Source: Comamonadaceae bacterium (GTDB lineage Bacteria; Pseudomonadota; Gammaproteobacteria; Burkholderiales; Burkholderiaceae_C). From it: 64,000 bases of DNA. Under the pieces are notes generated by a model. The model did not search any database. It worked only from the letters and a program-made list of their open reading frames with translations, and had not been told where the DNA came from. The translations under genes were made by a program, and so were the position numbers. Positions 3,254 to 40,941 of the stretch are shown one piece after another. The DNA is taken from contig CANBVJ010000007.1 of assembly GCA_947372865.1 (NCBI GenBank), positions 1 through 64,000 of the forward strand, read 5' to 3'. Each line of letters opens with the position of its first letter. The stretch's first letter is position 1.

Positions 3254-4756
3254 TTAGCCCTCGATGAAGTCCAGCGGCCAAGGCGTTTTTTGCCAGGCCA
3301 GCGCTTCTTCGCGCAAGAGATAGGCCGACTGCGGAAACTCTTGTGCCCAGAGTGCTGCGCATTGCAGTTGCAGCTTGGCGCCAGCCAATGCGACAAGGGC
3401 TACGCCGGACAAATCCGGGTCGCGCCTCGCGTGGCACAAAATGACGGCCAGGCGCAGCGCCAGCAGTTGCGCACGTAAATCGTCGTTGGCCAGTTCGGCT
3501 TCGAGCTTGCGCAATTTGCCCCGGTGGCCCAGCACCAGCAGGCTCAGGCGATGCAGCTCGGGCAGCGAAAAGCCCATGGCGTCTGCGTTGTCCAAAATAT
3601 AGGCGCCGTGCTTGTGGTAGTCGCTGTGTGAGATGTGGCTGCCAATCTCGTGCAATTCGGCCGCCCATTTGATTTTGCGAACGCTGCGTCCGGATTCGTC
3701 ATTGGGCAGCGTTTTGCTGGCGCTTGCCAGTTGCCCGAACAGCGACGCGGCCACTTGCCCAACCCGTGCGCCATGGTTACGATCGACGCCAAATTTGGTG
3801 GCGAGGCGCAGCACGGTCTTGAGCCGCAAGTCGCTGGAGGTGTCGGTGTTGCCACGCAGTTCACACAGCAGCCCGTGGCGCAAGCCGCCGTCGGTGGGGT
3901 GCAGCGCTTTGATTCCGAGCAGGCTAAACAAGGCGCGGGTGATGCTCAGGCCCCCGCCGATCACGGCCTTGCGGTCTTCCCGCATACCCGGCAGTTTGAC
4001 CCGGTCTGCGCTTTGGGCGCTGATGAGCTTTTCCAGCAGCCAGTCCAGATTTTCCTGGGTAATCAGGCCCTGCGGCCAACCCGCAGCAGCCAGCACGTCG
4101 CTGATCGCCCCTACCGTACCGGCCGAACCGTAGGCCACGTCCCAGTGGCTGGGGTGGTAGGCGTCCAGCGCTTCGTCGAGCACCGCCTTGGCTGCGATTT
4201 CCGCAATTTCAAAGGCGCGGCGGCTGAATTGTCCGTCGGCAAAGTAGCGGGTTGACCAGGCGATGCTGCCCACCCGAAACGACTCCATCACCCGGGGCTT
4301 GAAGCCCTGGCCCAGAATCAGCTCGGTGGAACGCCCGCCAATATCGATCACCATCCGGCGCTCGTCCGACGGTGCCAGCGTGTGTGCCACACCTTGGTAA
4401 ATCAGCCGGGCTTCTTCGCGTCCGGAAATCACGTCAATGGGAAAACCAAGCACCGCGTTGGCTCGCTCCAGAAACGCATCACGGTTGCGCGCCTCGCGCA
4501 GCGTCTGGGTGGCCACCGCGCGGACCTGTTCGGGAGCGAAGCCCGCCAAGCGTTCGCCAAAGCGCGCCAGACAATCCCAGCCGTTCTGCATGGCCGCAGC
4601 CGTCAGGTTGCGGTCGGCATCCAGTCCCGCGCCTTGGCGCACGGTTTCCTTGATGTATTCGGTGCGCTGGAATTCACCGTGGTCCAGAACGCCGATTTCC
4701 AGGCGAAAGCTGTTGGACCCAAGGTCGATGGCGGCAAGGCGGTCTTCAGAGGTCAT
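3254..4756 (-). CDS. ppx: Exopolyphosphatase / guanosine pentaphosphatase (Ppx/GppA family)
   Basis: Releases phosphate from the ends of polyphosphate chains and may also act on pppGpp. The 500-residue length fits Ppx/GppA proteins. The actin-like ATPase fold is visible as AAIDLGSNSFRLEIG (residues 8-22), SGREEARLIYQG (111-122, with the catalytic Glu) and VIDIGGRSTE (136-145). The C-terminal third has an HD-like helical region with HEIGSHISHSDYHKHGAY. It faces ppk-sixA across the histone-like gene, giving synthesis and degradation of polyphosphate in one locus. The sequence alone does not separate Ppx from GppA; the ppk neighbour favours Ppx. Confidence 0.93.
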   Translation of the reverse strand: MTSEDRLAAIDLGSNSFRLEIGVLDHGEFQRTEYIKETVRQGAGLDADRNLTAAAMQNGWDCLARFGERLAGFAPEQVRAVATQTLREARNRDAFLERANAVLGFPIDVISGREEARLIYQGVAHTLAPSDERRMVIDIGGRSTELILGQGFKPRVMESFRVGSIAWSTRYFADGQFSRRAFEIAEIAAKAVLDEALDAYHPSHWDVAYGSAGTVGAISDVLAAAGWPQGLITQENLDWLLEKLISAQSADRVKLPGMREDRKAVIGGGLSITRALFSLLGIKALHPTDGGLRHGLLCELRGNTDTSSDLRLKTVLRLATKFGVDRNHGARVGQVAASLFGQLASASKTLPNDESGRSVRKIKWAAELHEIGSHISHSDYHKHGAYILDNADAMGFSLPELHRLSLLVLGHRGKLRKLEAELANDDLRAQLLALRLAVILCHARRDPDLSGVALVALAGAKLQLQCAALWAQEFPQSAYLLREEALAWQKTPWPLDFIEG

Positions 4757-4836
4757 GGAGGAAAACGATTTAGATAATTTTGCGGGCGAAGGATAGCACT
4801 AAGCCTGCGATGGTTCACCTGATTGCTGCAGCACAA

Positions 4837-4866
4837 CAAAAAGCCCAGCCAAAGCTGGGCTTTTTG
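4837..4866 (-). terminator. Intrinsic terminator after the fasciclin gene
   Basis: AAAAGCCCAGC and GCTGGGCTTTT form a strong stem around a short loop, with T-runs on both sides, so it can work in both directions. It lies 51 bases after the end of the fasciclin gene and shields ppx from read-through. Confidence 0.8.
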
Positions 4867-4917
4867 CGCCTCGAAAGTTATTTGGGCTGCTCACGGTGCG
4901 CTAAGCACCCAGACGGC

Positions 4918-38019: not shown

Positions 38020-40941
38020 TCAGCCCGTATTGCGCAAGCCCGCCGCAATGCCGTTGATGGAAATATGGATGCCGCGCTGCACCCGTTCGTCCGCCTGGCC
38101 GGCGCGGTAGCGGCGCACCAGCTCGACTTGCAGATGGTGCAGCGGATCAATATAAGGAAAGCGGTGGCGGATGGAGCGCTGCAGCGCCGCGTTGTGCGCC
38201 AGGCGCTGCTTGTCTCCGGTGATCAGGGTCAGCGCTTGCGCGGTGCTGTGCCATTCGGCCTCAAGGGCGTTGAAAATTTTCTTGCGCAGGCGGGCGTCGG
38301 GCACCAGTTCGGCGTAGCGCGCGGCCAGGGCCAGGTCACTCTTGGCCATCACCATGTCCATATTGGACAAAAGCGTCTGGAAAAACGGCCATTGCCGCTC
38401 CATGCGGCGCAGCAAAGCGGTGCGCTTTTTGATTTGTGCGGCGCTGTGTTCGCCCTTGTCGCCGTGTACAAAGCGCTGCACCGCGGCGCCAAAGCCCAGC
38501 CAACCGGGCAGCGCCAGGCGGCACTGGCCCCAGCTAAAGCCCCAGGGAATGGCGCGCAGGTCTTCGATGCGTGGCGAGGGCGTCGGCGCTGGGCCGCCCC
38601 GAGCCGACGCAGCCCCCTCGGGGGGCAGCGAGGACACGCCAGTGCCGAGCGTGGGGGCAAACATCCTAGAGGCGGGGCGCGAGCCGATGTTGAGTTCTGC
38701 GATTTCGCGGATCGGCGTGGAGCTGAAAAAATATTCGGTAAAGCCGGGTGTCTCGTACACCAGAGCCCGGTAGGCGTCCATGCTGTGTTGCGACAGTTGC
38801 GCCGCCGCTTCCAAAAACGCAGGTGTGGCCGGTTTGGTGGCTTGCAGCAAGGTGGCTTCCAGCGTGGCGGCCACCAGGGTCTCCAAATTGCGACGGCCGA
38901 TTTCGGGGTTGGCGTATTTGGAGCCAATCACTTCGCCCTGCTCGGTCAGGCGAATCTGGCCGCGCACCGTGCCCGGGGGCTGGGCCAGAATGGCCTGGTA
39001 GCTCGGGCCGCCGCCACGCCCCACCGTGCCGCCGCGGCCGTGGAACATGCGCAATTGGATGGGGTGTTTGGCCGCCAGCGTGTCAAACAGCTCGACCAGC
39101 GCGATTTCTGCGCGGTACAGCTCCCAGTTGCTGGTGAAAATGCCGCCGTCCTTGTTGCTGTCCGAGTAGCCCAGCATGATGTCTTGCTCGGCGCCGCTGC
39201 GTTGCACCAGCGCGGCCACGCCGGGCAGGGCGTAAAACTCGCGCATGATGGGCGCCGCGTTGCGCAGGTCTTCAATGGTTTCAAACAGCGGCACCACGAT
39301 CAGGTCGCACACCGCCTCACCGTCGAGCGTGCCGCGCAGCAGGCCCGCTTCTTTTTGCAGCAGCAGCACTTCAAGCAAATCGCTCACCGACTCGGTGTGG
39401 CTGATGATGTAGTGGCGAATCGCCTCGCGCCCAAAGCGCTCGCGCATCACCTTGGCCATGTCAAAAATCGCCAACTCGCTTTGAGCGTGGGCGCTGTAGC
39501 TGGCGCCTGCCACTTTCAGGGCGCGGGCGTCGTTGAGCAGGCCTAGCAACAGCGTTCGCTTGTGCGCCTCGTTCAGCGCGCTGTAGTCGGCTTCCAGGCG
39601 CGCGGTGCGCAGCAACTCGGCCACCACCGCCTCGTGCTTGTCCGAGCTTTGGCGCAAGTCCACCGTGGCCAGGTGAAAGCCAAACACTTCCACCGCCCGA
39701 ATCAAGGGGTGCAGGCGCTGCGCCGTGAGCGCTTGGCCGTGGTTGCTGACCAGAGAGGCCTCAATGGTGCGCAAGTCGGTAACCAGCTCTTCGGCCAAGC
39801 GGTAGGGGTTTTGCGGCGGCACGGCGTGGCGCGCAGCGTCGGTCCCGGTCAGTTCGTGCAGCGTGGCGGCCAGCCGCGCATAGGCGCCGATCAGGGCGCG
39901 GCGGTAGGGCTCGTCTTGACGGTGCGGGTTTTGGTCGGGGCTGCGTGCAGCCAGGGCCTGCATGTCGGCGCTGCAGTCGCTGAGCATGGTGGAAATGGAC
40001 AACTCGCCACCCAGCAAATGCACCTCGGTCAGGTAGTGGCGCAGCGCCACTTCGCTTTGGCGGCGCAGGGCGTATTCCAGCGTCTGGGCGCTGACGTTGG
40101 GGTTGCCGTCGCGGTCGCCGCCAATCCACTGGCCCATGCGCAAAAAGGAATGCACCGGCTGCGCGCCCAGCAGTTGCTCCAGGTCGCCATAAATCTTGGG
40201 AATCTCGCGCAAGAACGTGGATTCGTAATAGCTCAGCGCGTTTTCCACCTCGTCGGCCACGGTGAGCTTGTTGTAGCGCAAGAGCCGGGTTTGCCAGAGC
40301 TGGGCCACACGGGCGCGGATCTGGGCGTCAATGGCTGCGAGTTCGCGCTGGGTCAAGGCGTTGCGCGGCTGCGCCTCGCCCCGGTAGAGCACGTCGTCGC
40401 GGGCGGTCAGCAATTGGGCGATGGCGCGCTCGGCGTCCAAAATGCTTTTGCGTTGCACCTCGGTGGGGTGGGCGGTGAGCACCGGCGAGACAAAGCTGTG
40501 CGCCAGCGACTGCGCAATCGTGTGCGGGGTAATGCCAGCCCAGCGCAGGCGCGAGATGGCGACGTCAATGCTGCCTTCTTGCGTTTCGCCCGCGCGCTCA
40601 TGCACGGCGCGCCGACGGATGTGGTGGCGGTCTTCGGCCAGATTGGCCAGATGGCTGAAATAGGTAAAGGCGCGGATGACGCTCACCGTCTGGTCGGCAC
40701 TCAGGCCCTTGAGCAGCTTTTTCAGGGCCCGGTAGGCCTCGTGGTCGGCGTCACGCCGAAAGGCCACCGACAGCGTGCGAATTTGTTCCACCAGCTCAAA
40801 GGCTTCTACACCGTCTTGCTCGCGAATCACGTCGCCCAGCATGCGGCCCAAAAGGCGAATGTCTTCCACCAGCGGGCGCTCGTTGCTTTTTGCGTTTTTG
40901 GGCAGACTGGCGGGCGAGGGTGCAGGAGCGGCGGTTTTCAT
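38020..40941 (-). CDS. ppc: Phosphoenolpyruvate carboxylase with an in-frame repeat insertion
   Basis: Fixes bicarbonate onto PEP to give oxaloacetate. 973 residues from the ATG at 40941, longer than most family members. Conserved parts: [14 protein letters not shown] (catalytic His), [25 protein letters not shown] and the terminal [10 protein letters not shown]. Between SRPASR and [14 protein letters not shown], where E. coli has the short catalytic loop KRRPTGG, about 30 extra Ala/Pro/Gly-rich residues are inserted ([14 protein letters not shown] and neighbours); their DNA is palindromic. The frame is kept. Divergent from hemC. An in-frame ATG further up (41040) gives unrelated residues. 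Confidence 0.96.
38573..38664 (-). repeat. Palindromic GC-rich repeat inserted in ppc
   Basis: About 92 bases with the core GCCCCC-TC-GGGGGGC (38612-38626), flanked by GGGCCGCCCCGAGCC and by GAGGACACGCCAGTGCC. The core resembles interspersed intergenic palindromes that I know from Comamonadaceae genomes. Here it encodes about 30 residues of ppc in frame. Boundaries are set by where the PPC homology stops and resumes. Confidence 0.6.

Follow-up and report, generated by a model that had tools for sequence, protein, structure and literature searches.

The window analysed here, a stretch of 64,000 nucleotides from a Comamonadaceae bacterium, encodes a phosphoenolpyruvate carboxylase (PPC) on its minus strand, with an ATG at 40941 and a stop codon at 38020-38022. 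Inside the gene is an insert that contains a complete copy of a repeat with three hairpins.

38020-40941, minus strand: ppc, phosphoenolpyruvate carboxylase, 973 amino acids (NCBIfam PRK00009.1 over its cut-off; match to 1fiy)
38569-38664, minus strand: insert, residues 760-791, 32 codons (relatives' proteins, alignment of 41 proteins, alignment with 1fiy)
38576-38657, minus strand: complete repeat copy (profile match to model R1, 82 positions, 75.1 bits, a score for a model in whose building the ppc copy itself was used)
38632-38646, minus strand: hairpin 1, whose stem differs between copies with both sides changing (copy alignment; coordinates from the sequence)
38612-38626, minus strand: hairpin 2, the constant palindrome GCCCCC-CGA-GGGGGC, GCCCCCTCGGGGGGC (sequence and copy alignment)
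38580-38610, minus strand: hairpin 3, an 8-bp stem GCGTCGGC/GCCGACGC around a 15-nt loop (inverted-repeat search and copy alignment)

The insert is bounded by the invariant residues R759 and I792, between which most relatives have five residues (KATQA or KASQR, for example, by protein comparison). An earlier note on this DNA had described about 30 extra residues at the position of the E. coli KRRPTGG loop, together with a GCCCCC..GGGGGC palindrome. The count is 32, the break falls within KRRPTGG between chain residues 704 and 705 of E. coli PPC in the 1fiy alignment, and the palindrome corresponds to hairpin 2. Residues 702-708 of the E. coli enzyme form what we take to be the mobile loop, which has the catalytic arginines R699 and R713 on either side. 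The residues aligned with these arginines, R755 and R796, are invariant in the 41 proteins with and without the insert. The mobile loop of PPC carries an element cassette of about 27 codons in frame.

Outside the insert the gene is under normal purifying selection, as judged from codon substitutions. The dN/dS of the window gene is 0.049-0.053 against its closest relatives (L130, L129, and L134), 0.087 against L135, and 0.11-0.15 against more distant relatives, similar to the 0.073 found between two relatives that lack the insert. On these figures the enzyme is probably intact. Structure prediction from the single sequence was worthless (mean pLDDT 38). With 41 alignment rows the mean pLDDT rose to 67, and residues 747-811 fell below 50 and were mostly coil, which is compatible with a disordered loop; this reading is weak because the nearby core was also poorly predicted.

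A 121-bp query from the ppc segment retrieved 21 further copies at E ≤ 2.1e-6 from the same 3.0-Mb genome and one extra half copy at E 0.014, giving 23 copies with that in ppc. The suspicion that an interspersed repeat sits in frame in a conserved enzyme loop was therefore well founded. The pattern CCCCCTCGGGGG occurs 17 times in this genome and the reversed control pattern not at all. The element is 82% G+C in a window of 62% G+C, a composition that might by itself suggest a chance low-complexity expansion or an assembly artefact. That explanation is refuted by the copies elsewhere in the genome, by the reversed control, and by the presence of the same segment at the same ppc site in other assemblies.

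Aligned in one orientation, the copies have the consensus GCCCCCACGCT - hairpin 1 - CGCT - GCCCCC CGA GGGGGC - N8 - TTGGGGCGGCCCGGC - N8. Hairpin 2 is constant across copies, whereas hairpins 1 and 3 vary in sequence and keep their pairing. In a covariation test 92.9% of cells were paired compared with 75.6% in shuffles, and 75 cells were altered on both sides compared with 27.3, a value reached by none of 500 shuffles; two of the five measures in this test did not go beyond the shuffles. The stem of hairpin 3 differs between copies and is mostly still self-complementary: 139 of 160 pairs were Watson-Crick, against a mean of 79.7 and a maximum of 107 when arms were exchanged between copies in 10,000 shuffles. 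For the 108 copies found by pattern in the loci fetched up to that analysis, 750 of 864 pairs were Watson-Crick (405 in shuffles, maximum 451 of 2,000); 57 stems were perfect, and the inner arms comprised 56 different sequences. Folded as a single strand, the ppc segment does no better than shuffles (z 0.23 as RNA, -0.08 as DNA), and the case for structure therefore rests on covariation between copies, not on folding energy. A search of six loci against Rfam gave only two matches, both far below the gathering score.

Complementary arms of this kind could also arise through quasi-palindrome correction, in which a switch of template in the course of replication maintains complementarity between the arms, with no need for the element to be under selection. 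Stems that are often perfect yet different between copies are what such a process would leave, and the ppc stems across lineages resemble one stem drifting on both arms. Wobble pairs are also not in excess (3 G-T against 6 A-C in stems of at least six pairs, and 10 against 17 overall). The lack of a G-T excess gives no hint that a single RNA strand is under selection, and RNA-level selection through wobble pairs was set aside for this reason. What correction leaves unexplained is the conservation of the 5' head, of the hairpin-3 loop, and of the synonymous sites outside the stems described below; we regard it as an unlikely account, though one to be taken seriously.

Copies also occur in head-to-tail tandem arrays, both in the window's own genome (L004/L009, L006/L007, and L017/L022) and on contigs C100 and C169 of genome G089. 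Tandem spacing is mostly 84 nt, or 28 codons, and once 87 nt in G089. Partial copies consist of hairpins 1 and 2 only (L019 and L022) or of hairpins 2 and 3 only (L023, in dnaG), so the element looks modular. A terminal inverted repeat, a trait of MITEs, was not seen by eye in the copy alignment. The last 9 nt upstream of 104 copies are A/T-rich with a TATG-like end directly before the GC-rich element, and this stretch may belong to the element or reflect a preferred target. Many copies come after stop codons: 67 of 104 have a stop trinucleotide in the 14 nt before them, against 20.9 expected.

By reading frames, gene families, and our own reading of both, 10 of the genome's 23 copies are carried in frame by conserved genes. 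They run forward in ppc, leuS, mpl, and putA, and in reverse in murD, gltB, recJ, a DUF2126 gene, and a helicase gene; the half copy is inside dnaG. Mostly two of the six frames are used, such that forward copies encode APTL..LPPEGA..GGPA and reverse copies AAGPPQG..APSGGS..SVGA. Eight of the ten in-gene copies fit these peptides, the helicase copy and the dnaG half copy being those that do not. The earlier note had envisaged the unusual invasion of an enzyme loop by an extragenic repeat; a single exceptional event of that kind is not supported by these counts or by the reuse of the same loops in relatives.

Among the matches listed, with the best 44 scored candidates taken per genome, the element was found in at least 80 of 103 genomes of the genus, and it was found in at least 26 of 250 genomes of the order among the matches listed there. 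Seven plasmid records from Variovorax, Acidovorax, Azoarcus, Burkholderia, and Paraburkholderia also carry it. In NZ_CP117194.1 (Acidovorax), NZ_LR594673.1 (Variovorax), and NC_020548.1 (Azoarcus) the plasmid copies have no listed gene underneath, the first two records having been checked individually. The copy in the ppc mobile loop is far more restricted, occurring in at least 4 of the 103 genus genomes among the matches listed (G046 and G024 are unreadable there, their ppc being cut off by the end of a contig ahead of the loop) and in 3 of 399 genomes drawn from the family, the window's own included. The comparison of relatives that the earlier note had called for thus yields a lineage-restricted insert. 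That note had set against its own idea the outcome that all relatives carry the segment and that it resembles no repeat, and neither holds.

A tree of 110 PPCs was determined with the insert excluded, from 109 of 111 loci tried plus the window. L058 and L136 were lost because they are blank at the loop, L128 was omitted as the window's own copy, and some genomes entered twice, so that 101 of the 110 rows differ. Presence of the insert needs six changes on this tree, all six forced by its starred branches, which could be either six gains or fewer gains together with losses. For the window lineage and G025 the sequences favour common descent, because the copy's 3' half is near-private to ppc: with up to three mismatches allowed, 103 genomes contain it in ppc in four cases and otherwise only at two positions in G081. 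G089 and a Rhodoferax metagenome-assembled genome (L059) carry two tandem units in the ppc loop where the window has one. A second ppc site lies near residue 541, occupied in the forward direction in L116 and L084 and in reverse in L057. L083 has, besides its mobile-loop copy, a reverse copy in frame at 2888-2969, just before the GRGG loop of its ppc.

Relatives add further host genes, namely cobQ, aroA, topB, an AidB-like gene, amgK, thrC, an abhydrolase gene, and an IcmF-like gene; L183 and L230, whose domain was found only after the element, and L184 and L221, which have none, were not counted as in-gene. Besides the second ppc site, two loops are used in both orientations. In amgK the loop is bounded by HRDFMPRN and LGVLDFQDA; four genomes carry a forward copy there and two a reverse copy, with amgK identified by NCBIfam for L208, by Pfam APH for L213 and L226, and by motif only for L180, L210, and L214. 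One loop of threonine synthase (thrC) has a forward copy in G024 and a reverse copy in G061. Barring inversion in place, opposite orientations cannot stem from one insertion, so the loops of amgK and thrC were hit more than once and probably independently. Inserts in murD were found in G000, G089, G046, G018, G006, and probably G045, of 94 genomes with a match, and in leuS in at least 7 of 90 genomes, in each case among the matches listed. At both sites some genomes have the insert while close relatives lack it, and the empty leuS alleles differ between relatives. At the one leuS site (L290-L296) hairpin 3 is common to the inserts and the hairpin-1 subtypes differ, most being self-complementary, which gives the impression that hairpin 1 is swapped as a module.

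Within genes the element changes far more slowly than the surrounding codons. Between the window and G035, 43% of synonymous sites in the ppc flanks have changed, compared with 1 of 26.5 in the element. A similar freeze was found in leuS, murD, recJ, mpl, the helicase gene, amgK in both orientations, cobQ, putA, and the abhydrolase gene. Of 22 pairs, many of which have a common reference, 21 gave p < 0.05; one amgK pair was skipped, and L070 (ppc), L262-L264 (murD), and L232 (mpl) dropped out when a pattern or motif had no match, L232 not reading as mpl ahead of the element. Because the sequence paired with putA is a tandem double, the putA figure looks better than it should. Eleven gene sets were pooled with one pair per set (ten genes, amgK in each orientation, mpl represented by L015-L186). 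The element had 6 changes at 264.5 synonymous sites (2.3%) and 16 at 626.5 nonsynonymous sites (2.6%), against 698 at 1878.4 synonymous sites (37%) in the flanks. Without putA and mpl the figures were 4/214 and 8/515 in the element and 556.5/1533 synonymous in the flanks.

When the protein alone was used to delimit the inserts, close pairs of ppc, leuS, and murD gave 0.03-0.07 against 0.33-0.52 in the nearest 20 codons (for ppc, 0.03 and 0.07 against 0.33 and 0.52); L296, L263, and L264 had no match in this comparison. Of the 43 positions that the search pattern leaves free, 0-3 differ in close ppc, recJ, murD, hrpA, and leuS pairs. Wider leuS pairs gave 0.23-0.34 against 0.45-0.68 nearby, and wider ppc pairs 0.11-0.52 against 0.36-0.49. 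Exceptions are the ppc pairs L001-L083 (0.51 against 0.57) and L001-L086, where the freeze is only weakly seen, and also mpl and putA, whose orthologues are no closer than paralogues. One hairpin-3 pair is broken between the window and L129. In the intergenic orthologous pairs, which are too few for a judgement, the element changed by 1-4% and the flanks by 6-10% in four, and by 9/79 against 8% in L012-L238.

Since synonymous and nonsynonymous changes are equally rare in the element, the peptide is not what is being kept, and the substitution pattern suggests, with moderate confidence, that in-gene copies are constrained as nucleic acid. The same equality bears on the proposal of the earlier note that the extra residues might alter regulation or kinetics of PPC and so be selected to tune the enzyme. 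The position of the insert between residues aligned with R699 and R713, given the roles we ascribe to these, and the presence of the element in the same loop in separate lineages are what might be expected of such tuning. Protein selection would nevertheless have to accommodate closely similar peptides in unrelated enzymes, equal rates at the two classes of site, and the absence of the insert from most relatives among the matches listed. We consider it highly improbable.

A different reading of the low divergence is that it reflects age. Copies would be young at each site, placed there by precise re-insertion or by conversion with tracts no longer than the element. Several observations fit: presence at one site is patchy in leuS and murD, the hairpin-1 subtype varies among leuS inserts that have a common hairpin 3, the leuS-type loop is also present in other genes, some loops are hot spots, and the orthologues of mpl and putA are no closer than paralogues. 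For five of the seven genes tested (ppc, recJ, murD, hrpA, and leuS), however, the orthologue is closer than the nearest paralogue, and the 3' half of the copy in ppc is near-private to that gene in 103 genomes. The codons adjoining the insert are as diverged as distant ones, leaving no room for recombination tracts of ordinary kind. We therefore doubt that youth explains the freeze, while granting it some weight.

We propose that the ppc segment is one copy of an interspersed repeat, 82-84 nt long with three hairpins, found in Comamonadaceae and other Burkholderiales, whose in-gene survivors were filtered and then constrained as nucleic acid, and we assign this joint reading a probability of roughly 0.74. 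Insertions would land widely, and survivors would be those that keep the frame, read through a stop-free and bland frame rich in Ala, Pro, Gly, and Ser, and fall in a tolerant surface loop. A length near a multiple of three, seen in the mostly 84-nt tandem period, would aid survival. After insertion the copy, we infer with moderate confidence, would be held as nucleic acid and not as peptide. Whether in-gene copies still act or are recognised as nucleic acid, as a protein-bound hairpin or an RNA structure that dictates loop residues in PPC, LeuS, MurD, and further core enzymes, is a more tentative step, to which we give slightly less than even odds.

Rickettsia is the best-known case of palindromic repeats read in frame within core proteins. 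The present examples come from betaproteobacterial Comamonadaceae, where core enzymes of metabolism and of the cell wall carry the element, with insertions into the same loop in both orientations and with synonymous and nonsynonymous change that is equal and very low. The greatest interest of this real in-frame insertion of a repeat lies in its frozen synonymous sites and in the repeated use of the same loops, which make it testable whether such insertions are junk that is tolerated or nucleic-acid elements at work, for which proteins have to make room. If the latter is true, some peptides in the proteins of these lineages were written by a DNA element and not by protein selection. Anyone annotating Comamonadaceae genomes, running dN/dS scans on them, or predicting their protein structures will encounter such repeat-encoded loops.

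Several known systems invite comparison. The GTAG/CGTC REPs associated with RAYT transposases are palindromes found mostly downstream of genes and in some cases within ORFs (PMC3733652). As described there, they resemble the present element in lying mostly after genes and sometimes inside ORFs; the element differs in being longer, in lacking a GTAG tag as a rule, and in showing no association with a Y1 transposase. Only 8 of 104 copies have GTAG in the 14 nt before them, where 1.0 would be expected (any TAG being enriched there by stop codons). Y1_Tnp occurs in 16 of 21 genomes, and among 13 neighbourhoods drawn from 33 matches a copy is present only in L191, at a distance of about 1.9 kb. A RAYT was rejected as the mover since G005 and G010 have Y1_Tnp and no element among the matches listed, and 12 of the 13 regions have no copy. 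Contig C18 of G000 carries a Y1_Tnp-family gene at 4553-4888, in a 239-aa frame without flanking repeats, of a family present in many relatives. In mitochondria of Nematomorpha, coding palindromes are described in which both arms encode conserved protein (PMC6649704). As in the genes described there, inverted repeats are kept here in functional coding genes, although in our case the repeat is inserted and its peptide looks unconstrained.

The closest match among described repeats is the beta-proteobacterial repeat element (BRE) named by Hot et al. (2011; PMC3110155), which is GC-rich, measures 75-91 bp in Bordetella, and forms tandem arrays. Its reported hosts are Comamonadaceae (Rhodoferax, Polaromonas, Acidovorax, and Delftia), Bordetella, and Azoarcus, and its copies are described as chromosomal only and as present also in coding sequences (PMC3110155). 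The 82-position model and the mostly 84-nt tandem spacing fit the BRE unit, and both repeats occur in Comamonadaceae and other Betaproteobacteria. By size, tandem habit, hosts, and presence in coding sequence, all of them described traits, the element is probably BRE. A lexA-like ORF, which neighbours BRE locus 3 in Bordetella, was not found by motif in 18 regions from six genomes of the order, none of them known Bordetella. The relevant passages of PMC3110155 give no structure, frame, hot spots, or rates for in-gene copies, and the open-access literature searched yielded no further analysis of in-gene BRE-like elements. For the translated copies the nearest parallel is with the Rickettsia palindromic elements (RPEs), which are Rickettsia-specific, 105-146 bp long, and found both in intergenic positions and in frame inside many unrelated conserved proteins, including a guanylate kinase that is still active (PMC2229807; PMC3733652). 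As in the RPEs described in these papers, a palindromic repeat is translated here within unrelated conserved genes (10 of the 23 copies in the window's genome). Unlike them, the present element belongs to Comamonadaceae, is a modular unit of three hairpins, and comes with a measured freeze of its synonymous sites.
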